Positions 36,889-60,817 are shown, numbered from the stretch's first letter. The stretch is 64,000 nucleotides of DNA from Sphingobacterium chungjuense (GCF_011316935.1 NZ_WLYS01000002.1:558001-622000), one strand, 5' to 3'. A program made the numbers and translations. Notes: a model not told the origin generated them from the letters alone.

Positions 36889-37752
36889 ATGCGAAATACA
36901 ATTCTGGTTCCCACAGATTTTTCAACGAACTCTCTTACTGCTGTACAATACGCTTGTCAGCTCGCTCAACATAGGGACTACGATTTACATTTACTCCATT
37001 ACTACACTAGTAATACAGCGAGTTTTACTAACGAATCGCAGCAAGAAGCAGATCAGGAAGAAAGTTCGCTATTGAAAGCGGATGTATTAATGCAAAAGCT
37101 AAAGACTGAATTGGCTACAGCATACCCTGAACTGATCATTACAGCAGTATGCGAAAGGGGATTAATTGATGAAAAATTACCTAAAGAAGCAGCTGAAGAT
37201 CAGTATGCGCTCATCGTAATGGGCGCCACAGGCGCTTCTGCCCAGAAATCCATCTATTACGGTAGCACCACCGTCGCAATTACAGCACAATCGCCTATCC
37301 CGGTAGTGGCCGTACCAGAGAGTTATTCTGATTTTGCCTTTCAGCATATCAGCTTATTGACCAAATTCAAAACAGAAGAACTAGAAACTTTACGTGCCTT
37401 TATCGGCCTCATAGGCGAACCACAAAAGCTTTCACTGACGCATGTGTATCGTGAAGAAAGCGATCTTGATGCCATGCAAGAACATTTGCAATCGTGGGCT
37501 TTTAACATTCGGGAAATGAATATTATCCAACAAGTTGATATTGAGAGTGCACCTATTTCGAAAAATGATGTCGACCTTGACACTGTTCCTGAAGTGGTTA
37601 ACAGCTTGATTGAAAAAGGCAATCCTGATATTATATTGGTCACTAAAACACGGAAATCGTTCTTCCAAAGACTTTTTACTGCTTCTGTATCAAAAGCAAT
37701 CGCGTTAGAACTAAGAAAACCAACTTTCTTCGACCGTATCGATCAAGTATAA
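36889..37752 (+). CDS. Universal stress protein with two tandem Usp domains
   Basis: A 287-residue cytoplasmic protein. The first Usp domain (1-142) begins NTILVPTDFSTNSLTAVQYA and contains the nucleotide-binding pattern VMGATGASAQKSIYYGSTT with PIPVVAVPE. The second (about 148-287) is less conserved and has no clear G-x2-G-x9-G-S/T motif. It is divergent from alaS. The role is general stress physiology; the trigger is unknown. Confidence 0.9.
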   Translation: MRNTILVPTDFSTNSLTAVQYACQLAQHRDYDLHLLHYYTSNTASFTNESQQEADQEESSLLKADVLMQKLKTELATAYPELIITAVCERGLIDEKLPKEAAEDQYALIVMGATGASAQKSIYYGSTTVAITAQSPIPVVAVPESYSDFAFQHISLLTKFKTEELETLRAFIGLIGEPQKLSLTHVYREESDLDAMQEHLQSWAFNIREMNIIQQVDIESAPISKNDVDLDTVPEVVNSLIEKGNPDIILVTKTRKSFFQRLFTASVSKAIALELRKPTFFDRIDQV

Positions 37753-37788
37753 AATGATTTGCTTACTTGACTGACGGACTCACAGTTA

Positions 37789-38643
37789 TTAAAAACGATC
37801 GAGTACCAATTGTATGGCTCGCTCCACAACGGCTTGTGGTTGCTCACTAAAGCGTGCATCTACACGACTGGCTACTATAGCGTTGATGGAGATGGCTCTA
37901 TGGCCAAACATATTAGCCAATGCATAGATACCGGCCGTTTCCATTTCTAAATTTGTAATATGGCGACCCTTCAAGTCTAGACGTTCTGCAATTTCAACAA
38001 ACTGCGGCGCTGCCTTTTGCGTCCGCACTTTGCGACCTTGAGGGCCATAAAATCCCGGGGAGGTCACTGTAATTCCTTTAAGTAGATCGTATGCGTATTG
38101 TTCTACTAAAGCTTCATTAGCTTTGCCTACATACGGCCTAACTACAAATTCGGAAAATGCTTCAGTCAAAGCCTCCCTAATTTCGACCTCTTCAGCGGTA
38201 TATTGTTTTTTATAGAATTGCATTAACGAATCGAATCCCACCGCAAATTCGCTCACAATAATCTGATCCATAGCAACTTCAGGATGCATCGATCCACTGG
38301 TGCCAATACGAATTATATCTACAGATTTAATGTCAGGATTAAGAGATTTTGTCTGGAGATCTACGTTGAATAGTGCATCAATCTCATTGATCACAATATC
38401 GATATTATCCGTACCAATACCGGTAGAAACAACTGATATACGCTTCCCGCGCAAATGCCCTGTATGTGTAATAAACTCGCGCTTTCCTTTTTTTATTTCT
38501 ACGCTATCAAAATGCCGCGATACCAATGGCACTCGCTCTTGGTCACCTACGAAAATGATAGTTTCAGCGATATCTTCAGGAAGTAAATTGAGATGGTAAA
38601 CACTGCCATCTTGGTTTAGTATTAGCTCGGAATCATTGATCAT
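37789..38643 (-). CDS. Nucleoside phosphorylase, uridine phosphorylase-like
   Basis: A 284-residue NP-I family enzyme that cleaves nucleosides with phosphate. Characteristic segments are ETIIFVGDQERVPLVSRHFD, VVSTGIGTDN and RIGTSGSMHPEV in the phosphate and ribose site, then NLEMETAGIYALANMFGH, the MExE segment that binds ribose. The uridine phosphorylase subgroup is the best fit, but purine use cannot be excluded. It overlaps the yigZ-like gene upstream by 4 bases on the same strand, so they are translationally coupled. Confidence 0.88.
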   Translation of the reverse strand: MINDSELILNQDGSVYHLNLLPEDIAETIIFVGDQERVPLVSRHFDSVEIKKGKREFITHTGHLRGKRISVVSTGIGTDNIDIVINEIDALFNVDLQTKSLNPDIKSVDIIRIGTSGSMHPEVAMDQIIVSEFAVGFDSLMQFYKKQYTAEEVEIREALTEAFSEFVVRPYVGKANEALVEQYAYDLLKGITVTSPGFYGPQGRKVRTQKAAPQFVEIAERLDLKGRHITNLEMETAGIYALANMFGHRAISINAIVASRVDARFSEQPQAVVERAIQLVLDRF

Positions 38644-39257
38644 ATGGTTTTCAGATAATGAAGTTTTGTGTGCTCTATCTTTTCCAAACGGCCTACAACG
38701 GTATTTACGTTCATCTTGCGAATTGCAATCTGCATGACACAGTCATTGTCAAATTGTTGTTCACGGATTGTAGCATTTTCTTCTTTAATGATACGCATAA
38801 TATCATTCATTTGCAAATATTGAAACCGTAGTTCATAGATATCATCTGTGGTTTTTTCGATCACTTTCGCAGATTCTAGCGCAATTTGCGTGGCGCTTTT
38901 ATAAGCATTTATTAAGCCGGGAACACCGAGCAAAGTTCCACCGAAATAGCGCACCACAACAACTAAGACATTTGTTAGATCTAATGATAACAAAACGTTT
39001 AAAATTGGCCGACCAGCTGTTCCTGATGGTTCACCATCGTCATTAACCCGAAAAATTGAACGATCTGGAGTGAGCCGATACGCATAGCAATGATGTCGTG
39101 CTTTAGGATGTAAAACTTTTAGTTGTGCAATCACATCCTTTAATTTAATTTCATCTTCAAAGGGATAAACGTAAGCGATAAATTTACTGCCCTTGTCCCT
39201 AAATATGCCTTCGTATGTTGCCTCTATCGTACGATAAGTATCTTCAAATAAGCTCAC
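38640..39257 (-). CDS. YigZ/IMPACT family protein
   Basis: A 205-residue protein with the UPF0029/IMPACT N-terminal domain: GSKFIAYVYPFEDE near the start, HHCYAYRL, FRVNDDGEPSGTAGRPIL and VVVRYFGGTLLGVPGLI are its hallmark segments. The C-terminal DUF1949 part is about 140-205. The biological role of this family is poorly defined in bacteria; a regulatory or ribosome-linked role has been suggested for relatives. It is the first gene of a two-gene unit with the nucleoside phosphorylase. Confidence 0.92.
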   Translation of the reverse strand: MSLFEDTYRTIEATYEGIFRDKGSKFIAYVYPFEDEIKLKDVIAQLKVLHPKARHHCYAYRLTPDRSIFRVNDDGEPSGTAGRPILNVLLSLDLTNVLVVVVRYFGGTLLGVPGLINAYKSATQIALESAKVIEKTTDDIYELRFQYLQMNDIMRIIKEENATIREQQFDNDCVMQIAIRKMNVNTVVGRLEKIEHTKLHYLKTI

Positions 39258-39674
39258 AAAAATTGAATGTTTAAACCTGCAAAGAGATTGTAATTTTTAT
39301 ATAAATGACCGTCGACATTAATCGCGTCTGTTACAAGCTGCAAAATTATTATTAATAATAATACTAGCTAATACAAATATCCCAATATCACACAAAGAGT
39401 ATCAAACAAACTCACTTTAAATTAGCACGAAACAACTGTAAGTAAGAATTTTACGCACTACCTGTCGTCATACACATAGCATATATTAATTATCATCAAA
39501 CTGTGTATATTTAGTCTTTGTTACAAAGAAATACCCTTCCATGAATCAAATACTCAAGATTTAAAATAAAATTAATAAATTATATAATTTTACTTTAAAA
39601 CAAAAAAATCTTTCGTAAAATTGCTATAGTTAATTTAAACATAATTATAGTTAAACTTTTTGAACTTAAAGATT
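39258..39674. other. AT-rich gap upstream of the hydrolase array
   Basis: About 417 bases with no credible gene, strongly AT-rich. It ends with TTAAACTTTTTGAA (39651-39664), the 14-base string also found at 16682-16695 and 17921-17934. The promoter of the first hydrolase gene should be here, but I see no exact TTG-N19-TAnnTTTG. Confidence 0.5.
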
Positions 39675-40808
39675 ATGAAAAATTTGAGCGTAATGCTACT
39701 TTTATTCTTTTTTATTTTTTCCTCTTGCGAGAAAAATGATGAAGTATTCGAAGCTGAAATTGTTGATGACTCTGACTTCCTTAATAGCGAGGCTCAAGCC
39801 AAAGGCATAGCAGATTTATTTAGAGTCAACTTTACGACGCAAATCCTAAACCTTGCGTCGCCATTAATCAAGACACAGCCTGTTTTTGGACTTGCTAATG
39901 ACCAATACAATAGACCTGGTCCTTATGCTGTATCAAGGATTAATGCTACCAGACAAAATTGTAGCGGGTTTGTCGGAGCTGTACAAACAGTGCTAGCCGC
40001 TATCAAAGTTGTAGATCCAAATGTTCGTTGTAATGACGCATTTCCGTATGGTTTTGCCGACAGGCGCGTAACTGAAATATCTTACCCTTCCAACATTCAA
40101 TCTCTAGGAAAAGTACCGGTTATCAACTTTGTTGGTGGATTGTTGTCCAATGCCGGCAACTATGATGCATTAATTGATCTGTGGACTAGCTACGGATTTA
40201 TCGTCGTAAATACCAGTAACTTTATCAATTTCAGTCCATCACTTCAAGTTACTGGACTCACAGAATTAGTGGATCAAAATCGTAATCCAGAATCACCCTT
40301 ATATAATAAAGTTGATTTGTCTAAAATTTTAGTCTCTGGTCACTCTGCTGGTGGAGGCGGGGCAATCTTGATCACTGCTTTGCCAGCCAAAGCACTACAG
40401 ACGATTGACCCTGAAATTAGACTTGTAGGATCTTTCCCTTTGCAAGCTAGCTTTAATGCTACTGGCTTAGGCGTGACTGTGCCAACATTAATTCTAACTG
40501 GTGAAATTGATGTCATTGTTCCACCAATTCTACAAGGTCTCAATTGGCAATACAGATTTATTAAAAAAGCTCCAGCATGGTATATCGTGACAAGATATTC
40601 GAATCATGGTACGCCTACCTTAGAGTTGGCTCGAAATGACTATGCAGGTATATCAGTGGCATGGATATTATACCACGGTAAAAATGATGCCGAAGCCGCC
40701 AAATATTTTGTTGGTAAATCGTATTTAGCGACGCAAGACCCAGCGTTTATTCAAGGTGTATTACATCCGCTTAGAGTACGACGGAACAAGTTAGCCGACA
40801 AATTGTAA
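39675..40808 (+). CDS. Secreted alpha/beta-hydrolase lipoprotein, array copy 1
   Basis: A 377-residue lipoprotein whose substrate I cannot name. The signal peptide ends FSSC, followed by EKNDE. The alpha/beta-hydrolase triad is visible: nucleophile Ser224 in GHSAGG, Asp279 in TGEIDVIVPP and His311 in SNHGTP. NRPGPYAVS and FVGGLLSNAGNYDAL, then SYGFIVVNTSNF, recall the order of blocks in cutinase/PETase-type esterases (GPY-V, oxyanion region, SxGFVV, GHSxGG). Two cysteines in NCSGF and VRCND are shared by all four copies. ATG 39675 puts the signal at the terminus; a TTG 15 bases upstream is less likely. Confidence 0.82.
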   Translation: MKNLSVMLLLFFFIFSSCEKNDEVFEAEIVDDSDFLNSEAQAKGIADLFRVNFTTQILNLASPLIKTQPVFGLANDQYNRPGPYAVSRINATRQNCSGFVGAVQTVLAAIKVVDPNVRCNDAFPYGFADRRVTEISYPSNIQSLGKVPVINFVGGLLSNAGNYDALIDLWTSYGFIVVNTSNFINFSPSLQVTGLTELVDQNRNPESPLYNKVDLSKILVSGHSAGGGGAILITALPAKALQTIDPEIRLVGSFPLQASFNATGLGVTVPTLILTGEIDVIVPPILQGLNWQYRFIKKAPAWYIVTRYSNHGTPTLELARNDYAGISVAWILYHGKNDAEAAKYFVGKSYLATQDPAFIQGVLHPLRVRRNKLADKL

Positions 40809-41259
40809 ATAAGTGAGTACAGGAGATTCAAACTCTGCAATTGAAATATATTCAGTAATAGCCCACACAATAATAGGGTCAGTGCAAATTGCCATACATC
40901 ATCATATCTTTTCATTGAGATGTATTTTGTAGATAGCGAACAAGAGTATAGTTTGACAAAAAAGCATGCTCGCATGAGCATGCTTTTCCTTCCACTCAGT
41001 AGTTTCTGATAACACAATTATAGCCTCGATCTAGCAGCAAAATAAAAATCATATTCACAATGAACACTGTTAAATTTTGCTACCAGTTTTCAGCCAACGC
41101 AGATCAATAAGATTATTTGGTCATAACAACAGTGCGAGCGAAGCTTATTTTTTCGAAATCAACGCTTGACGATGATAGTACGTTGACCGTAATTAAATAA
41201 GAACATTTAATAGTATAGATACAACACATTTTTTCAAGATATCATTTAAACTCACCATT
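40809..41259. other. Gap between hydrolase copies 1 and 2
   Basis: About 450 bases. It holds the copy 1 terminator (40960-40987); the rest has no gene, repeat or clear promoter that I can support. Open frames on the minus strand here have no signal, family pattern or neighbours to support them. Confidence 0.5.
40960..40988 (+). terminator. Terminator after hydrolase copy 1
   Basis: A 12-base perfect stem (40960-40971 with 40976-40987, AAAAGCATGCTC, 4-base loop) ending TTTT. It is 151 bases after the stop. Its core AAAGCATGCTC recurs in the terminator of copy 3. Confidence 0.85.
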
Positions 41260-42342
41260 ATGAAAGCTTTAATATTATTAACATGTACACTCCTACTCTT
41301 TTCATGCGCTAAAGATAGCGAGGTGCTACAGAACCAAGCAGCAAATGAACTTACAGCTGCGAATGTATCTTCATTATTTGGCGGTTATCCAGCGATAGGG
41401 ATAGCAAATAATGAATATGCAAAGCCAGGCCCGTACGCTGTCAAGACCACTGCTGTTAGAGGAGATTGTAAACTAGTCAGCGGATTGCTATACGGTTTTG
41501 CCTCATCAACGGGGATCATAGCTCCAGACATACAATGTAATCCACAATTCCCTGCTGGACTCGATTTTCCTGCAGCAACAGAGGTTTGGTATCCTAGCGA
41601 CATTCGGAAATTAGGCAGATTACCTGTCGTAAACCTAGTTGGAGGAATTATATCCAATCTAGGAAACTACGACACCTACGCACGATTGTGGGCAAGTCAT
41701 GGCTTTATCGTGGTTAACACGAACGACTTCATAAACTTAACTCCTTTGATGCATGCGCTAGGTGCAATTGAACTTTCTATCGAAGATAAAAAGACAGGAT
41801 CAGACTTAAAAGATAGAGTTGATTTATCAAAAATGATTCTCGCTGGGCATTCTGCTGGTGCTGGAGCAGCAATTACAGTGTCAAATTTGGCACCGGCTGT
41901 TTTTCAAAAAATTGACCAACGTATAAAAATCATAGCATCGCTACCGATTCAACCATCGATTCTTACATCAAGCTCTTTAGTTGTAAGAACGCCAACCCTG
42001 TACCTTGCCGCTGAAAATGACGAAGTAAATGGCAAATTTGCAACACTAAATTACTATAATTTACATCCACCAACTCAACCTGCATGGTTTGCTACGGCCA
42101 GAGATGCATCTCACTTTAGCCCAGTTAGGGAAATTGAGAAAAATGAATATGCAGGTATTACAACAGCGTGGTTACTCTACCAAGGAAAGAATAATACCGC
42201 AGCAAAGGCATATTTTGTGGGACCAAACTATAGGTTACAGCAAGATCAACAGTTTATTCTCCAAAAATCAAACTTTGCCGATCTCACTCCTATAACCTAT
42301 GGAGTCAAACGTAATTTGGCAGCAAACCTGTTAAGAAATTAG
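41260..42342 (+). CDS. Secreted alpha/beta-hydrolase lipoprotein, array copy 2
   Basis: A 360-residue paralogue and the most divergent of the four. The signal ends LLFSC, followed by AKDSE. Triad: Ser198 in GHSAGA, Asp254 in AAENDEVNG and His285 in ASHFSP. The family blocks KPGPYAVKT, VNLVGGIISNLGNYD and HGFIVVNTNDFIN are kept, and the cysteine pair appears as GDCKL and IQCNP. The oxyanion side differs from its neighbours (GHSAGA not GHSAGG; AAENDE not TGExD), so substrate use may differ. Copy 3 follows 81 bases later with no terminator, so these two probably share a transcript. Confidence 0.82.
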   Translation: MKALILLTCTLLLFSCAKDSEVLQNQAANELTAANVSSLFGGYPAIGIANNEYAKPGPYAVKTTAVRGDCKLVSGLLYGFASSTGIIAPDIQCNPQFPAGLDFPAATEVWYPSDIRKLGRLPVVNLVGGIISNLGNYDTYARLWASHGFIVVNTNDFINLTPLMHALGAIELSIEDKKTGSDLKDRVDLSKMILAGHSAGAGAAITVSNLAPAVFQKIDQRIKIIASLPIQPSILTSSSLVVRTPTLYLAAENDEVNGKFATLNYYNLHPPTQPAWFATARDASHFSPVREIEKNEYAGITTAWLLYQGKNNTAAKAYFVGPNYRLQQDQQFILQKSNFADLTPITYGVKRNLAANLLRN

Positions 42343-42423
42343 CCATTACGAAGATCCACATAAAGGCTTCAGATGAAGTTGAGTTACATTTTATTTATTT
42401 TAAAATTTAATAACCGTATAATT

Positions 42424-43578
42424 ATGAAGAATTTCATCCTACCTTCCATCTGCTTCTTGGTGTTTCTTTACTCTTGTGAGAAAAAACAAGAATTTATAGA
42501 TACTAATACATCCACTGAATCAATCAGTACCGACGCCAAAGGCGCACTCATCACTAAGTTTGATCCCAGTATCGGTTTAGCAAATGATTTGTATAATAGA
42601 CTCGGTCCGCACCAAGTATCTACTACGGGCACCAGACTAGATTGTTCAGGATTTGCTGGAACGATTCAAAGAGTGTTAGCAGCATTACGTTTTATAGACC
42701 CTGGCGTGAGATGTAGCCCTTCATTTCCATATGGGTTTGAGGATAGACGCGTAACGGAAGTTTTTTACCCATCAAACATCCAATCACTAGAGAATGTGCC
42801 TGTGATCAGTTTCGTAGGCGGTCTTGTTTCCAATCAGGGTAATTACGATGCATTAATCAGATTGTGGACCAGTTATGGATTTGTGGTGGTTAATAGCAAC
42901 AATTTTATCAATTTCAATCCGTCGCTACATGTTACTGGTCTTTTAGAAATCGTTGCACAGAACAGCAATCCACAGTCACCTTTATACAACAAACTGGATC
43001 TGTCCAAGGTTCAAGTATCAGGGCATTCGGCCGGAGGATCGGGCGCGTTATCTATTACTTCAAAGACAGAGAAGATAATACAATCTATTCATCCTTCGCT
43101 CAGAATAATTGGATCTTTCCCACTGCAACCTAGCTTTGCCGCCAGTGGTAATAATGTCAATGTACCGACTCTGCTATTAACTGGCCAGTACGACGTGCTT
43201 GTACCACCCACCACATTTCCACTCAAAAATCAGTATCAGAAGATTAGCAGCGCACCTGCGTGGTTCGTATCTACCAAAAACTCCAATCACCTTACACCAA
43301 CTTTAGAACTGGCACGAAACGATTATGCTGGTATAACAGTTGCATGGATATTATACAATGCTAAAAATGATGTTGCTGCATCGCGATTTTTCGTAGGCCC
43401 AGCTTATAGATCTCTTGAAGATCCAGCATTCACCCAAGCAGGAGATTTACCACTGGCAGTTTACAGACCCAGCAAACCATCCGAATACCTGAAGACCGGC
43501 GAACCTTTTGTACTTGTAAAGCCAAACCCAACCCGAGTACAGCGAAACAGTCGTGCTAATGCACTAAAATCGCTTTAA
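42424..43578 (+). CDS. Secreted alpha/beta-hydrolase lipoprotein, array copy 3
   Basis: A 384-residue paralogue closest to copy 1 (both have FPYGF, DRRVTE, YPSNIQSL and SPLYNK blocks). From ATG 42424 the signal ends FLYSC, followed by EKKQE; an in-frame ATG at 42373 would bury the signal behind 17 residues. Triad: Ser202 in GHSAGG, Asp257 in TGQYDVLVPP and His289 in SNHLTP. Conserved cysteines lie in LDCSG and VRCSP. It has about 30 extra C-terminal residues rich in Pro, Arg and Lys that the others lack. Confidence 0.82.
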   Translation: MKNFILPSICFLVFLYSCEKKQEFIDTNTSTESISTDAKGALITKFDPSIGLANDLYNRLGPHQVSTTGTRLDCSGFAGTIQRVLAALRFIDPGVRCSPSFPYGFEDRRVTEVFYPSNIQSLENVPVISFVGGLVSNQGNYDALIRLWTSYGFVVVNSNNFINFNPSLHVTGLLEIVAQNSNPQSPLYNKLDLSKVQVSGHSAGGSGALSITSKTEKIIQSIHPSLRIIGSFPLQPSFAASGNNVNVPTLLLTGQYDVLVPPTTFPLKNQYQKISSAPAWFVSTKNSNHLTPTLELARNDYAGITVAWILYNAKNDVAASRFFVGPAYRSLEDPAFTQAGDLPLAVYRPSKPSEYLKTGEPFVLVKPNPTRVQRNSRANALKSL

Positions 43579-43616
43579 TAAGTTCGCTTAGGTTCGCTAA
43601 AACATACAGTTACTAG

Positions 43617-43658
43617 AAATACATAAAGCATGCTCTCAAGGGCATGCTTTATGTATTT
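43617..43658 (+). terminator. Terminator after hydrolase copy 3
   Basis: A 17-base perfect stem (43617-43633 with 43642-43658, AAATACATAAAGCATGC, 8-base loop). The AAAGCATGCTC core also occurs in the copy 1 terminator. Confidence 0.85.
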
Positions 43659-43822
43659 AATCAAATTATCAAGGTACAAATCCAGCCATAAACACCTAGC
43701 TAAATCACCTATTTCAATACGACATAAATTAACATAATATTATATATTTATTACATTAAAGAATATTTAAACTATTAGCACTATTGTTGGAGTTGATATT
43801 ATATCTCTAAAATAAATATATT

Positions 43823-44866
43823 ATGAAAAATTTAATTTTAATTTTACCACTAGTACTATTCCTTTCTTCTTGCCAGAAAGATGAAGAACCTCTAACCACG
43901 CAAGCGCTAGGCGACAAATCTAAAGCCTCTGCAATAGTGAACGCCTTTGGTCTAGCTAATGCGGAGTACAGCAAATTGGGACCATACGAGGTAGCGACCA
44001 ATGCGGTAAGAGGAGATTGTAGGCAATTAGTCGGTATAGCTTCAAAAGTGTTAGCGAGTCTCAAATTAATTAATCCCGAAGTGCGATGTAGTCCCGCATT
44101 TCCTTATGGTTTCGAACAAAATTTTTCTACCGAAGCATTTTATCCAGCCAATATTCAATCATTAGAAAAAATACCGGTTATCAATTTTGTAGGTGGTATT
44201 CTATCTAATCAGGGACACTATGAAGCATTAGCAACATTATGGGCCAGTTACGGTTTTGTGGTCATTAATTCTAACAATTTTATAAACACGGTACCTACGA
44301 TGCATATTTACGGTGCGATCGAGGCCTCCAAATTAAACGATGACCCCCTATCTCCGCTCTATAATAAGATTGATTTGACAAAGATGATTGTAGCTGGTCA
44401 TTCCGCTGGAGGTGGAGCGAGCATACTTACGTCGAGTTTATCACAAAAAGCATTAGACATCATTGACCCCAGATTAAGAATACTTGGATCATTACCGATA
44501 CAACCCGGCCCGCTTGCCATTGGCACCACTGTTAAACACCCTACATTTATAATCACAGGCGAGCTGGACCTTATTGTTTCACCACTTTTATGGCCCAATC
44601 TATGGCAATCTAATCTCATAAAGAGAGTTCCCTCTTGGATAGCAACAGCAAGATTTGCTACGCATTTTAGTCCGACACTCGACATTCAAAGAAACGAATT
44701 TGCTGGCATTTCGGTCGCGTGGATGCTCTACCAAGGAAAAAATGACGAAAGCGCATCTCGATATTTTGTTGGCACCGATTATTTACTACAATCAGATCCA
44801 CAATTTATCCAAGGTACGTTGAATCCTCTGCGAGTGCAACGGAATAACTTAGCAGATAGATTATAG
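43823..44866 (+). CDS. Secreted alpha/beta-hydrolase lipoprotein, array copy 4
   Basis: A 347-residue paralogue. The signal ends FLSSC and is followed by QKDEE, which fits the lipoprotein export signal (Lys plus acidic residues just after the lipid Cys) defined in Capnocytophaga, so surface display is likely. Triad: Ser194 in GHSAGG, Asp249 in TGELDLIVSP and His281 in THFSP. Family blocks KLGPYEVAT, NFVGGILSNQGHYEAL and SYGFVVINSNNF are intact, with cysteines in GDCRQ and VRCSP. Its own promoter must lie in the 164 bases after the copy 3 terminator. Confidence 0.82.
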   Translation: MKNLILILPLVLFLSSCQKDEEPLTTQALGDKSKASAIVNAFGLANAEYSKLGPYEVATNAVRGDCRQLVGIASKVLASLKLINPEVRCSPAFPYGFEQNFSTEAFYPANIQSLEKIPVINFVGGILSNQGHYEALATLWASYGFVVINSNNFINTVPTMHIYGAIEASKLNDDPLSPLYNKIDLTKMIVAGHSAGGGASILTSSLSQKALDIIDPRLRILGSLPIQPGPLAIGTTVKHPTFIITGELDLIVSPLLWPNLWQSNLIKRVPSWIATARFATHFSPTLDIQRNEFAGISVAWMLYQGKNDESASRYFVGTDYLLQSDPQFIQGTLNPLRVQRNNLADRL

Positions 44867-44952
44867 TATAAGATAAGTTATCGACTCAACGAATAGTTCA
44901 ACTTTTAATTTTAACGTTGAATGATCATGTTGACCGTTTAACTTTCCGAAAC

Positions 44953-44986
44953 GCGTTGAAGCAGTTATTGTTTCAACGCTTATTTT
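44953..44986 (+). terminator. Weak terminator-like hairpin after hydrolase copy 4
   Basis: GCGTTGAA (44953-44960) pairs with TTCAACGC (44972-44979), 11-base loop, followed by TTATTTT. Weaker than the other terminators. Confidence 0.5.
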
Positions 44987-45049
44987 AAAACACTCCATCA
45001 ACTTGACAGACGACCAAATTGCTTTCGCTATAATATCACAAAGATAGAG

Positions 45050-45910
45050 CTACAGATAGGCAATCATCAATACTGCTATAATAGCCAAAGCTATCCCAAC
45101 AACATTTACACGAGATAGCTTTTCCTTGAAAAGCAATACACCCAGCAAAGCTCCTACGCCAATTACACCGATGTTCATTCCAGCAAATACGACAGAAGGA
45201 TTATTGACAAGTGCTTGATGTGCTCGCATATAAAATAAGATATTACCAAAATTCAAAGCACCTAACACTAGCCCCCAATACATAGATTTGGCTGAAAAAT
45301 GCAGCTTATTAAAAATACACTGTACTATAAAGTACATGAAAGCTAAGATAAAAGCACCCGTGAAGATCAACAACAAAGAAGTGGTATACGGCACATGTAT
45401 TTCAAGTGCCACCGTCTTAAACAACACATCAATCGCTCCGTAACCAACAAATACCAAAAGCGGAAAAAGCAAATAGCGCAAACCTTGACTCGGCCTCACA
45501 CCCTTGCGCCAGCCCACCAAAAAAGCAATAGCCAAAAAACCGACGAGAATACCAGCGATACGCCAAGCGCTAAACACTTCTCCAAAAACAAAAGCTGCCG
45601 CCAATAAAGACAATACCAACGAAAGCCGCTGCGCCACCTCGGTCTGCACCAAACCAGCATACCGTAGAGAATAGGATAATAACATAAACAAACCTGGCAA
45701 CAATACAGCAATAGGCAAATATGTGCGCCAAGGAAGCATAGACCAAGCTATCGTATTAAGATCCGGTTGAAATATAAAATAGGTAAAAGCTAATGCTGCT
45801 GGATAATTCCAGACAATCATTTGCCAAGTATCCACCCCACACTGTCTAGCGTATTTCAATAAAACTGCCACGGCTACCGAACAGCATATACTTATGAGCA
45901 CAAAATGCAT
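45050..45910 (-). CDS. EamA/DMT-family transporter
   Basis: A 286-residue inner membrane protein with about ten hydrophobic helices in two repeats, as in drug/metabolite transporters. GRYLLFPLLVFVGYGAIDVL lies in the middle and SVVFAGMNIGVIGVGALLGV, then LFKEKLSRVNVVGIALAIIA near the end are typical of the second EamA repeat. Such proteins export or import metabolites including amino acids, but the substrate is not evident. It is divergent from the aromatic amino acid operon, with about 540 bases between starts. Confidence 0.88.
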   Translation of the reverse strand: MHFVLISICCSVAVAVLLKYARQCGVDTWQMIVWNYPAALAFTYFIFQPDLNTIAWSMLPWRTYLPIAVLLPGLFMLLSYSLRYAGLVQTEVAQRLSLVLSLLAAAFVFGEVFSAWRIAGILVGFLAIAFLVGWRKGVRPSQGLRYLLFPLLVFVGYGAIDVLFKTVALEIHVPYTTSLLLIFTGAFILAFMYFIVQCIFNKLHFSAKSMYWGLVLGALNFGNILFYMRAHQALVNNPSVVFAGMNIGVIGVGALLGVLLFKEKLSRVNVVGIALAIIAVLMIAYL

Positions 45911-56197: not shown

Positions 56198-57649
56198 CTA
56201 ATAATCGCTATTTTGAATGAGCACGCCCCCACTTCGGTCTATCTGACTTTGCGGAATAGGCCACAAATAGAATCTTTGTTGAAAATTGTATTGAATAATA
56301 CCATCTTGGATTGCATTCAATACTTCTTCCGCAATACGCCACCTTTTGAGATCGAAGTACCGTGTCCCTTCAAAAGCGAGTTCCAATCGGCGCTCTGACC
56401 GGATTAAGTCTCTGAATTCTTCTTTTGAAAACGTCGGTTCTAGATTAGTTAATCCGGCTCGCGTTCTGATAGCATTGATCGCAGCATAACATTCGGACGT
56501 TGGGCCAGTAATCTCATTTTCTGCTTCAGCAAAGTTTAGCAACACATCCGCATAGCGAAACATCACCCAATCTTGAGCACTTCTCGTGGAGTAATCATAA
56601 GGGATATTTTCTGGCGTTAAGAACTTTTTGACCCCATAACCAGTAGGCATATTGTTGGATGGCAAATGTGTTTTACCGGTGCCAAAGTCGACCACATTTT
56701 GGAAAATACTCGCCTCTTTGCGCAAATCATCATCTTCAAATAAAGACACGAAACTAGGCAAAGGACTAACACCAACCCAATCGCCATACCATTGATCCAT
56801 AGCGGTAGCATTATTGGGTGCTAGAAATTTGACAGAAAAGATGATCTCCGGATTTCCTTCCTGGCGGTTATCGCGAAATACATCGTGAAATACAGGCGAC
56901 AATTGATAGCCTGTGGCCATGATCTGCTTGGCCAGATCCCGAGCTTGGGTTAGTACTGCTACGTTGGGCGAGCCATCGGTATTATATCCAGTATACATCA
57001 GTACTCGTAATTTGAGAGCCTGAGCAGATGACTTCACCACTCGGCCATTCCCTTGCGCGTAAGTAACCGCAGGAAGGAGCTCAATGGCACGATCTAAATC
57101 GTTGTAAATGAAAGCTAGAATCTCCTCAGCAGATACTTTTGGTTGTACAAAGTTATCAAGATCTAGCGCCTTGTCTACTAGTGGTACATCACCATAACAG
57201 GCATACAGCATGTAGTAATAGTAAGCGCGCATAAATTTGGCCTCTGCCTCGTATGAAAGAATCAAATCCTGAGGGAGAAAGTCTGCATTATATTGCTCTA
57301 GTTGGCCTAAAAAAATATTCACTCTTGCGATGCCTGCGTATGCATTCGAATACACATCCGATATAAAACCGCCTAAGGATGGTGATATCTCCCCAGAAGC
57401 TATATCTCTGGCGCGATTAGAATTGTGTTGACCATAAGCATTGTCGGTGAGTAAATCCCAATCGGGTGATCCATAGGAGAAGATGGGTGTCTGCAACTTG
57501 CCATAAATAGCAGTCATCGCCATATCAAAGTCGCCCTGTGTGTTCCAAAACTGACTGGCAGAATATCTATCTAGTGGATCTCGATCAATACTACAACTTG
57601 CGAGCAGTAAGCCTAGTATTGCTGTAACTATATTTTTGAACTTATACAT
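56198..57649 (-). CDS. SusD/RagB-family nutrient-binding lipoprotein, second locus
   Basis: A 483-residue surface lipoprotein, the lid of the adjacent SusC. The signal peptide ends LLLASC with lipid Cys19. KFMRAYYYYMLYACYGDVPL is the SusD core helix segment, and the C-terminus has WPIPQSQIDRS and a terminal NSDY. It starts 12 bases after the SusC stop. Given the GH95 enzyme upstream in the operon, a fucose-containing oligosaccharide is a reasonable ligand, but this is inference. Confidence 0.95.
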   Translation of the reverse strand: MYKFKNIVTAILGLLLASCSIDRDPLDRYSASQFWNTQGDFDMAMTAIYGKLQTPIFSYGSPDWDLLTDNAYGQHNSNRARDIASGEISPSLGGFISDVYSNAYAGIARVNIFLGQLEQYNADFLPQDLILSYEAEAKFMRAYYYYMLYACYGDVPLVDKALDLDNFVQPKVSAEEILAFIYNDLDRAIELLPAVTYAQGNGRVVKSSAQALKLRVLMYTGYNTDGSPNVAVLTQARDLAKQIMATGYQLSPVFHDVFRDNRQEGNPEIIFSVKFLAPNNATAMDQWYGDWVGVSPLPSFVSLFEDDDLRKEASIFQNVVDFGTGKTHLPSNNMPTGYGVKKFLTPENIPYDYSTRSAQDWVMFRYADVLLNFAEAENEITGPTSECYAAINAIRTRAGLTNLEPTFSKEEFRDLIRSERRLELAFEGTRYFDLKRWRIAEEVLNAIQDGIIQYNFQQRFYLWPIPQSQIDRSGGVLIQNSDY

Positions 57650-57661
57650 GTGTGTACTATT

Positions 57662-60600
57662 TTAAAACTGTAGGTTAACGCCAAATGAATAAATCTTATT
57701 TTGTGGATAAGTCAGAAAGGTACCACTGCCACCGCGCTCCGGATCCAAACCTGGATAATTTGTCCAAGTAATTAAGTTATCTCCAGAAAGAAATACTCTG
57801 AATTTTTCGATTCCAATTTTAGCCAGCGACTCTTGGGAGAATGTGTATCCCAGACTCAGGTTTTTCAAACGGAGGTAACTGGCATTGCGTAGGAAATAAG
57901 AGGATGGTCTTGAAAACTTTTGTGGAGAATCCCAACCAAAATACAGCCTTGGCATCGTGGTGGATGGATTATCTTCTGTCCACCGATCTCTGATATCTGT
58001 GGTTGGCGCTGAACCTTGCACAAAAGGCATGATTCCCCAATTGTTTAAGAAGATATTCCGCCCTTGTACTCCTTGGAATAGCACCGATAAATCAAAGTTT
58101 TTCCATGAAACACTCCCATTTACCGCGTACTGGAATTGTGGAAAAGCACCATCCATGTGTACTCTATCATTATCGTCGATCTTTCCGTCACCATTTTGAT
58201 CTCTATAGATCAAGTCACCTGGCAACGTGTTGTCATTATACTGCTTTGGTGCGGCCGCAATTTCATCTGCATTCTGGAATATGCCTACTACTTCTAGCAT
58301 GTAGAATGTATCCAATGGCCGGTTGTTTTCTTTGATCGTCCATTGTCCAATCTCGGGAGCACCAAAATTCATAACCGTATTTTTGAAATGATCCATGTTT
58401 CCACCGACGCTGTATCTCAGACCTTCAAACAGACCCGATTTGATTTGATTCTGATAGTTGACCGCCACCTCAAAACCTCTATTTCTGACGGTTCCCGAAT
58501 TAATAAAGGGAGCGCCAAGGCCAACTAGATCGGTAAACTGGATATTCCGCAAAATATCACGTGTATCTTTTTGATACCAATCGAACGTAATATCGAGCTT
58601 ATTGAACAGCCTCACATCTAAACCGAGGTCATAGATGGCAGTTTTCTCCCATGAAATCGCCCGGTTAGGTAAGTTACCTTGCGCAACCCCAGGAGACAAT
58701 TCAGAATTATCAAATGAGTAATCACCTGTAAAATCGTACAGATCCTGATATGGGTACGGATAATTACCATTAATATTGATATTTTGATTCCCGAGCAATC
58801 CGTAGGATCCTCGTACCTTTAGCTCATTTAACCATCCAAAGCTCGCGTTGTCGCGTATAAAGGATTCTTGGGATATTCTCCAAGCGCCAGAAAACGAAGG
58901 AAACACACCCCAACGTTGTTCGGAACTAAATCGTGAGGAGCCGTCATAACGGAAATTACCTTCGAATAGATACTTGTCCGCAAAACTATAATTTAAGCGA
59001 CCGAATAAGGATTGTAAAGCCCATTCATACGTAGAGCCATCATTTCTTAAAACAGATAATCCGCCAGCATTTAATTCTCGAAGTGCACCACCATAGAAAT
59101 TCTGCCTATATCCACCTAAAAACTGATTCTGATTGGCCTCATAGCTGTATCCTACTTGCGCACCTATCGTATGAAGATCATGGAAGCGATCCTCGTATTT
59201 TAAGTAAGAGAACATGTTGGTATATCGATTTTCGCGGCGTGTTTTCTGAAGACCTAGCTCGCCAACATCTAAATTGGTGGCAAATTCTCCCGATCGAAAA
59301 TTGTATAATGGAACAGTCGGTCTCCAATCCGATTCGTTGTCAAAATCACCAACGATAGCAGCCTTTCCGTACCAACTTAGGTTTCGAGCTATCTTCGCAT
59401 CAAACCACCCCTGCAGGTTTATTGAGTAATCTCTGTTTTTATAAAAAGTTTCATTATCAATAATAGCCAGCATATTTTTGTTATTCACCTCAAAATCATA
59501 GGCTTTGTGAACAAACCTACCATCAGGCAACTGAGGAGCATATGTTGGAGCTTGGGACAATGCGCCAACAAATGCATCTTCTCCTCCCTGTCTCGGTCTT
59601 TGTGTATTTCCTTGTTTGGCACTTATATTACTTCCTATTTTTAGCCAGTCGTTTATGGTCGAAGTTAAGTTTAACCGCATATTAAAGCGCTCATAGTTGA
59701 ATCCCATAAAAACGCCCGGCTGGTTTACATACCCCATCGATAGATTGTATTGGGTTTTCTCACCACCGCCGTTAACACTAAGATTGTGTTGATGTACAAA
59801 TGCGGGGTTGAAAAAGATATCAAGCCAATCGGTATTGGGGTACTTGGTTAAATCTGTCGCATTACGGTATAACTCAATATCCTCCTGTGAGTATAATCCT
59901 CGATTAATACCGGTATTGAGTTTGGCTTCATTAAAAAGCTCCATATATTCGGCTGAATTAGTGATCAAATCAAACATCTTTGTCGGCGTATGAATCGCTA
60001 AATTATTGCTATATTCTACAAATGTGCGACCGACAGAACCTATTTTCGTGGTGACTAAGATGACACCGTTGGCTGCTCGCGAACCATATATTGATGCCGA
60101 AGCGGCGTCTTTTAAGACAGATACATTGTCGATATCGTTTGGATTCAGATCTGTCAAACTACCTTCAACACCATCGATAAGAACCAAGGGATTATTCCCC
60201 GCTCCACTAAAAGTACCTTGACCACGCATGCGTATCGTCAGATTTTCATTACCCGGCTCCCCACCACCTTGCACAATACTCAATCCTGGAACTTGCCCCT
60301 GAAGCATTGCACCGGCATTGGTCACAGGACGCCGAACCATATCATCACCTTTCACGGTCGCTACAGATCCCGTCAAATTGGCTTTCTTTTGCGTTCCAAA
60401 ACCCACCACCACAATCTGATCTAGCGTTTCGGAAGAGGTCTCTAATACGACATCCATAAAATCTTCTGCGGAAACATTGATTTGCCGATCTTGATATCCG
60501 ACCGATCTGAAGGTGAGTATTTCGCCTGCAGCTGCGGTGATGGAGAACAAACCTTCCGCATCTGTCGCAGTAGCGACTGCGCTTTTTGAAGAGGTAATAG

Positions 60601-60817
60601 AAACACCCTGAATCGCTGTACCATCGGATGTAGTTACTTTTCCCCGAATATTTCTTTGTAATACATCTGTATGAATATCTTCATTCAATACATCTTTTAA
60701 ATGTGCCACATCGTATCCAAGCACCACGCCATAAGGCGTGATTAGGGATAGCAGTACCACGGCAATACCGCGTAGGATTGCCAGCCCCCTTTTCAGGGGG
60801 TATTTTTTTCTCATCAT
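57662..60817 (-). CDS. SusC/RagA-family TonB-linked outer membrane transporter, second locus
   Basis: A 1051-residue TonB-dependent transporter. After a signal segment (about 10-36) comes a carboxypeptidase-regulatory-like domain (about 57-130, IRGKVTTSDGTAIQGVSI), a TonB-box-like QIVVVGFGTQ, the plug (NPLVLIDGVEGSLTDL, ASIYGSRAANGVILVTTK) and a barrel ending GVNLQF. It has no STN domain, unlike the first SusC in the window, so it is not expected to signal to a FecR. It lies between the GH95 gene and susD with gaps of 40 and 12 bases, so the three form one operon. Confidence 0.95.
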   Translation of the reverse strand: MMRKKYPLKRGLAILRGIAVVLLSLITPYGVVLGYDVAHLKDVLNEDIHTDVLQRNIRGKVTTSDGTAIQGVSITSSKSAVATATDAEGLFSITAAAGEILTFRSVGYQDRQINVSAEDFMDVVLETSSETLDQIVVVGFGTQKKANLTGSVATVKGDDMVRRPVTNAGAMLQGQVPGLSIVQGGGEPGNENLTIRMRGQGTFSGAGNNPLVLIDGVEGSLTDLNPNDIDNVSVLKDAASASIYGSRAANGVILVTTKIGSVGRTFVEYSNNLAIHTPTKMFDLITNSAEYMELFNEAKLNTGINRGLYSQEDIELYRNATDLTKYPNTDWLDIFFNPAFVHQHNLSVNGGGEKTQYNLSMGYVNQPGVFMGFNYERFNMRLNLTSTINDWLKIGSNISAKQGNTQRPRQGGEDAFVGALSQAPTYAPQLPDGRFVHKAYDFEVNNKNMLAIIDNETFYKNRDYSINLQGWFDAKIARNLSWYGKAAIVGDFDNESDWRPTVPLYNFRSGEFATNLDVGELGLQKTRRENRYTNMFSYLKYEDRFHDLHTIGAQVGYSYEANQNQFLGGYRQNFYGGALRELNAGGLSVLRNDGSTYEWALQSLFGRLNYSFADKYLFEGNFRYDGSSRFSSEQRWGVFPSFSGAWRISQESFIRDNASFGWLNELKVRGSYGLLGNQNININGNYPYPYQDLYDFTGDYSFDNSELSPGVAQGNLPNRAISWEKTAIYDLGLDVRLFNKLDITFDWYQKDTRDILRNIQFTDLVGLGAPFINSGTVRNRGFEVAVNYQNQIKSGLFEGLRYSVGGNMDHFKNTVMNFGAPEIGQWTIKENNRPLDTFYMLEVVGIFQNADEIAAAPKQYNDNTLPGDLIYRDQNGDGKIDDNDRVHMDGAFPQFQYAVNGSVSWKNFDLSVLFQGVQGRNIFLNNWGIMPFVQGSAPTTDIRDRWTEDNPSTTMPRLYFGWDSPQKFSRPSSYFLRNASYLRLKNLSLGYTFSQESLAKIGIEKFRVFLSGDNLITWTNYPGLDPERGGSGTFLTYPQNKIYSFGVNLQF

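Follow-up and report, generated by a model that had tools for sequence, protein, structure and literature searches.

To our knowledge, it is unknown for most PETase-like enzymes which substrates they act on in nature. Among the described enzymes, type III PETases are defined by the motif GHSQG, by a subsite I in which Thr, Gln and Tyr are strictly conserved, by two disulfides remote from the active site, one of them C-terminal, and by a five-residue insertion in loop 3 (PMC12442448, PMC13396203). In the PETases PET27 and PET30, which come from Bacteroidetes, a Por sorting domain lies at the C-terminus and the binding residues are Phe-Met-Trp/Tyr (PMC8767016). For lipoprotein polyester hydrolases of Sphingobacterium and for S. 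corticibacter, a literature search returned no paper, and it gave nothing relevant on Sphingobacterium with suberin or on cutinase, suberin and Populus.

We analysed a gene array in a 64,000-nucleotide stretch of the Sphingobacterium chungjuense genome (NZ_WLYS01000002.1:558001-622000). This whole stretch is called the window, and positions are counted from its first letter. The original prediction of tandem paralogous alpha/beta-hydrolase lipoproteins of 347-384 residues was borne out. Four intact open reading frames lie in tandem on the plus strand and span 39675-44866, each with an N-terminal signal peptide and a lipobox Cys:

Positions 39675-40808, plus strand: copy 1 (P0001), a lipoprotein of 377 aa with a PF12740 match, triad S224/D279/H311, GHSAGG, and Gly after the catalytic His.
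Positions 41260-42342, plus strand: copy 2 (P0002), 360 aa, the most divergent of the four, with GHSAGA and Phe after the His.
Positions 42424-43578, plus strand: copy 3 (P0003), 384 aa, with GHSAGG, Leu after the His and an additional C-terminal insert.
Positions 43823-44866, plus strand: copy 4 (P0004), 347 aa, with triad S194/D249/H281 and C-QKDEE after the lipobox; its structure was modelled.

The start of copy 3 was set at 42424, where the lipoprotein signal begins; the open reading frame as listed opens 17 codons earlier, at 42373. The copies are 39-59% identical in pairs, far beyond chance, and align from end to end with a mean column identity of 61%. Constant across all four are GHSAG, an Asp following a Pro-Thr strand, the catalytic His, a C-terminal Asn-x-x-Ala motif and a pair of Cys within the N-terminal third of the protein (C96/C119 in copy 1 and C66/C89 in copy 4). 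GHSAG was also constant in all 11 array sequences. A search of the window genome found no further long-form copies.

All four copies matched the Pfam family PF12740 (PETase), scoring 52.2, 50.9, 60.6 and 47.3 bits for copies 1-4 against a curated gathering cut-off of 28 bits; Chlorophyllase, PAF acetylhydrolase and AXE1 came up as weak secondary hits. With an E-value limit of 1e-5, a profile of the 11 array sequences matched 174 distinct sequences in the PDB, and the best 60 of these mostly bear the names of PETases, cutinases or polyester hydrolases. The top matches were HaloPETase1 (9hl5), dsPETase05 (9k0h) and 9w68, with E values of 4e-21 to 5e-21. Structure prediction with fold comparison, as the original prediction had proposed, was run for copy 4 (mean pLDDT 75, pTM 0.76; mostly 80-97 in the core and below 55 in the N-terminal insert) and revealed a PETase/cutinase fold with Z scores of 27-30. 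The model superposed on dsPETase05 with Z 30.2 and on the P. mendocina lipase/cutinase (2fx5) and HaloPETase1 with Z 29.8 each, with an rmsd of 2.1 over about 236 residues, and on LCC and IsPETase with Z about 27. Foldseek agreed with these PETase/cutinase neighbours, and the model of copy 2 (pLDDT 61) was too weak for a structure search. Serine esterase of the PETase/cutinase type is a well-supported assignment for the array enzymes, as judged from sequence and a predicted model. The earlier statement that the set has no defined function was too strong, since the PF12740 match and the polyesterase and cutinase neighbours provide an enzyme class. Half of what the original prediction had named as its refutation, a match to a characterised family, thus holds: the match gives the class and not the substrate, which does not follow from the family because identity to any characterised enzyme is 19-28% and the known PETase pocket residues are missing.

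The complete Ser-Asp-His triad predicted for each copy was confirmed by alignment to 9hl5, 9k0h and 9w68 and by a residue table. The catalytic residues of the matched PDB enzymes align with S194, D249 and H281 of copy 4, and alignment to solved relatives placed the triad of copy 1 at S224, D279 and H311, with equivalents in copies 2 and 3. The catalytic His is not near the end of the protein as had been described, with some 65-95 residues between it and the C-terminal end. The noted difference between GHSAGG and GHSAGA is real, but GHSAGA is confined to copy 2 and the change does not lie on the oxyanion side: every copy has Ala as the putative oxyanion residue, which immediately follows the Ser, and the Gly/Ala change falls two residues further on. 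Clearer pocket differences were found at the position following the catalytic His (Gly, Phe, Leu and Phe in copies 1-4) and in a Pro-x-Gln-x-x loop, which reads PLQAS, PIQPS, PLQPS and PIQPG, respectively. None of the four copies has a Cys in its C-terminal two thirds, and hence none has a C-terminal disulfide. Aromatic clamp residues were absent from the array copies in both the alignment and the residue table. Without an aromatic clamp or the usual oxyanion residues, these enzymes would not be expected to have strong PET activity.

A lipoprotein surface-export signal, C-X-K-(D/E)2-X, has been defined in Capnocytophaga (PMC5080379), and a literature search found no definition of such a signal for Sphingobacterium itself. 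In copy 4 the lipobox Cys is followed by QKDEE, which matches the Capnocytophaga signal; copies 1-3 read EKNDE, AKDSE and EKKQE and fit it in part, so that the fit is clear for copy 4 only. The Lys at +3 from the lipobox Cys is nearly invariant among the array sequences. Together, the lipobox and this Lys suggest that the array lipoproteins are likely displayed on the cell surface. A Pfam scan found no C-terminal Por secretion sorting domain in copies 1-4, which have short C-terminal tails instead.

The array is bordered by two genes on the opposite strand:

Positions 38640-39257, minus strand: yigZ-like gene, the left border of the insertion site, outside the array; it abuts EamA in array-less relatives.
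Positions 45050-45910, minus strand: EamA-type permease gene, the right border of the insertion site, outside the array.

The original prediction had stated that no transporter sits with the array. An EamA permease gene does adjoin it, but this gene is not part of the array, because in members of the genus without the array it lies next to yigZ. EamA directly abuts yigZ in all 26 array-less Sphingobacterium loci examined besides G057, indicating that the array occupies a site that in other members of the genus is closed. G057 falls within the four-species clade of the carriers but lacks the array; beside yigZ (L072:13639-15078 and L073) it has a gene for a MACPF-domain lipoprotein and a prophage. 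The lipoprotein gene encodes MACPF and DUF5648 domains and is pore-former-like. The yigZ/EamA site may be an insertion hot spot.

Among about 1,390 genomes, the long form was found in three Sphingobacterium species only, always between yigZ and EamA. The carriers are the window genome (four copies), S. corticibacter 2c-3 (L005/G208; four copies) and Sphingobacterium sp. CFCC 11742 (L006/G037; three copies), which we take to be S. populi. There were no others among 399 genomes of the family, 400 of the order and 395 of the phylum, or in a pattern-based scan of 84,980 species; sampling being partial, further carriers may exist. Outside the carriers, the best matches in the family come from single proteins some 300 aa long that lack the N-terminal insert. 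An origin from a phage or plasmid was rejected, as phage and viral collections held no match to the array proteins and the plasmid matches, on Streptomyces plasmids, reached only 27-29%. No partner or glycan-utilisation genes adjoin the array, and the tannase/MHETase-like family PF07519 had no match in the window genome or its relatives, the control likewise giving none. Elsewhere in the window, a SusD-family lipoprotein gene (56198-57649) lies beside an open reading frame of 1051 aa (57662-60817); the two probably form a SusC/SusD pair and have no relation to the array.

A gene tree paired each window copy with one S. corticibacter copy (1 with 1, 2 with 3, 3 with 4 and 4 with 2) at 77-80% identity, and grouped copies 1 and 3 against 2 and 4, with modest support at several forks. 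In window numbering the gene order is 1-2-3-4 in the window and 1-4-2-3 in S. corticibacter, which indicates that the array has been rearranged. The search of other genomes proposed in the original prediction therefore found conservation in part: the copy number is four, four and three, and the order differs between the window and S. corticibacter. The dN/dS between orthologues is 0.04-0.09, similar to that of neighbouring housekeeping genes, although these values are rough because dS is near saturation. The four paralogues are older than the split between the window species and S. corticibacter, and each has been maintained separately. Four one-to-one orthologues with this identity and low dN/dS support a lasting functional division between the copies rather than mere dosage. 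The earlier proposal of different substrates instead of dosage gains indirect support from these orthologues under purifying selection and from the differing pocket residues. Within 36889-45910, synonymous divergence to S. corticibacter (pS) was high (0.64-0.74) from usp to the end of the array. To either side it was lower at 0.34-0.46, in alaS at one end and in EamA, pheA and aroG at the other, a contrast that may come from either recombination or codon bias.

Two array genes outside the window genome are altered. In S. corticibacter copy 1 (L005:8001-9134) the triad Asp is replaced by Asn (codon AAT, against GAT in the window copy) in an otherwise conserved gene, and the middle array gene of CFCC 11742 (L006:8001-9202) has a frameshift about one third along, which could be either an assembly error or decay. 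Not every copy need therefore be active in every species. Hairpins or inverted repeats were found after three of the window copies:

Positions 40961-40986, no strand: probable terminator hairpin AAAGCATGCTCGCATGAGCATGCTTT, following copy 1.
Positions 43617-43658, no strand: inverted repeat after copy 3, with 20-nt arms that are 95% complementary and a core in common with the copy 1 hairpin.
Positions 44953-44979, plus strand: terminator-like hairpin with a T-rich tail, 3' of copy 4; the number of such sites is not above shuffles.

Under the pattern used, the GCATGCTC hairpin was found at only two places in the window genome, behind copies 1 and 3; the S. corticibacter array carries a single one, some 110 bases past its copy 1. 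These placements would fit duplication of a gene together with its terminator. A terminator scan gave a count not above shuffles, and a promoter scan gave little above them.

We hold with moderate confidence that the array encodes four lipid-anchored, probably surface-located serine esterases of the PETase/cutinase type that divide the work between them, likeliest on plant cutin or suberin or on acylated plant material. The enzymes would be exported by Sec, lipidated and transferred to the outer face of the outer membrane, where the Ser, in an open, lid-less catalytic cleft, would attack ester bonds of extracellular acyl esters or natural polyesters. The copies may share out the work between different substrates or chain positions. 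Our leading guess for the natural substrates is plant cutin and suberin esters, with glycan acyl esters second, and plant material is put first since tree bark is the probable source of one or more of the carrier species. The species name S. corticibacter points to bark. According to a title cited in PMC6612551, Sphingobacterium populi was described from poplar bark. It is possible, though doubtful, that the array proteins are instead small-molecule or side-chain acyl esterases acting on acetyl, feruloyl or lipid esters of glycans or membranes, with the PETase fold reused for deacylation of plant or microbial material. The weak Chlorophyllase, PAF acetylhydrolase and AXE1 matches, the annotation of the nearest plasmid relatives as acetylxylan esterases and the absent aromatic clamp are consistent with such a role; however, the best-scoring relatives and the structural neighbours are polyesterases and cutinases, and the array has no adjoining glycan-utilisation genes.

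Repeated tandem duplication in one clade could also have produced a dosage array that is now drifting, with some copies inactive and no division of substrates. We consider this improbable. Copy number and order vary, one orthologue lacks the triad Asp and another is frameshifted, and a gene and its hairpin were seemingly duplicated as one, but the four one-to-one pairs predate the species split with even identity and low dN/dS, and the paralogues have diverged widely and differ in their pocket residues. That some copies are non-catalytic binding or decoy lipoproteins, keeping the fold and losing the chemistry, is suggested by the Asn in S. corticibacter copy 1, a gene still under constraint; given that Ser, Asp and His are kept in all four window copies and that GHSAG is invariant throughout the array sequences, this seems highly improbable. 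A bolder extension of the favoured reading, four surface esterases with divided work, is that the array has a PETase-like pocket of a separate, additional kind (GHSAG, no aromatic clamp, a two-Cys N-terminal insert) and is displayed on the surface, and that its four specialised copies jointly degrade a plant polyester such as suberin in bark-dwelling Sphingobacterium. We put this forward tentatively, as rather unlikely in full.

Type III PETases (HaloPETase1, dsPETase05, the P. mendocina cutinase PmC and R75estA) are closest to the array in both sequence (E 4e-21) and structure (Z about 30). They share with it the His preceding the catalytic Ser, the triad order and the lack of a Tyr/Trp aromatic clamp, and with copies 2 and 4 the Phe after the catalytic His. 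In contrast, the array is at most 28% identical to them, has GHSAG in all copies for GHSQG, with Ala in place of the oxyanion Gln, and has Ile/Leu for T88 and Ser/Gly for Y180 at the aligned positions. It also lacks the loop-3 insertion, seen as a gap in the alignment, and the C-terminal disulfide, and its proteins are lipoproteins with a two-Cys N-terminal insert. The type I/II PETases and bacterial cutinases (LCC, IsPETase, PE-H) have the fold and triad in common with the array (Z about 27, about 20% identity), but the array lacks their oxyanion Met after the Ser (GHSAG, not GxSMG), their clamp Trp (Pro-Leu/Ile-Gln where those have Pro-Trp) and, having no C-terminal Cys, their conserved C-terminal disulfide. 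The bis(hydroxyethyl) terephthalate hydrolase BdeA (NF051441) bears a weak likeness over the hydrolase core; identity with it was rejected at 17.8-37 bits against an equivalog cut-off of 520. As the type III and the type I/II pocket residues are both absent, the array fits no named PETase type and is, on its sequences, a divergent side branch of the known PETase family. PET27 and PET30 share the phylum and the broad enzyme class; the array proteins differ from them in being lipoproteins that lack a Por domain and have Ala for Met. Collectively, the array is real and somewhat unusual, yet a new branch of a known enzyme family, and the weight of the finding depends on the substrate. Its clade-restricted set of four old, separately kept copies offers a natural comparison of pocket diversification, and it may represent a surface-anchored route to plant polyester use in Bacteroidota, the phylum of the described PETases PET27 and PET30, which have Por sorting domains instead.
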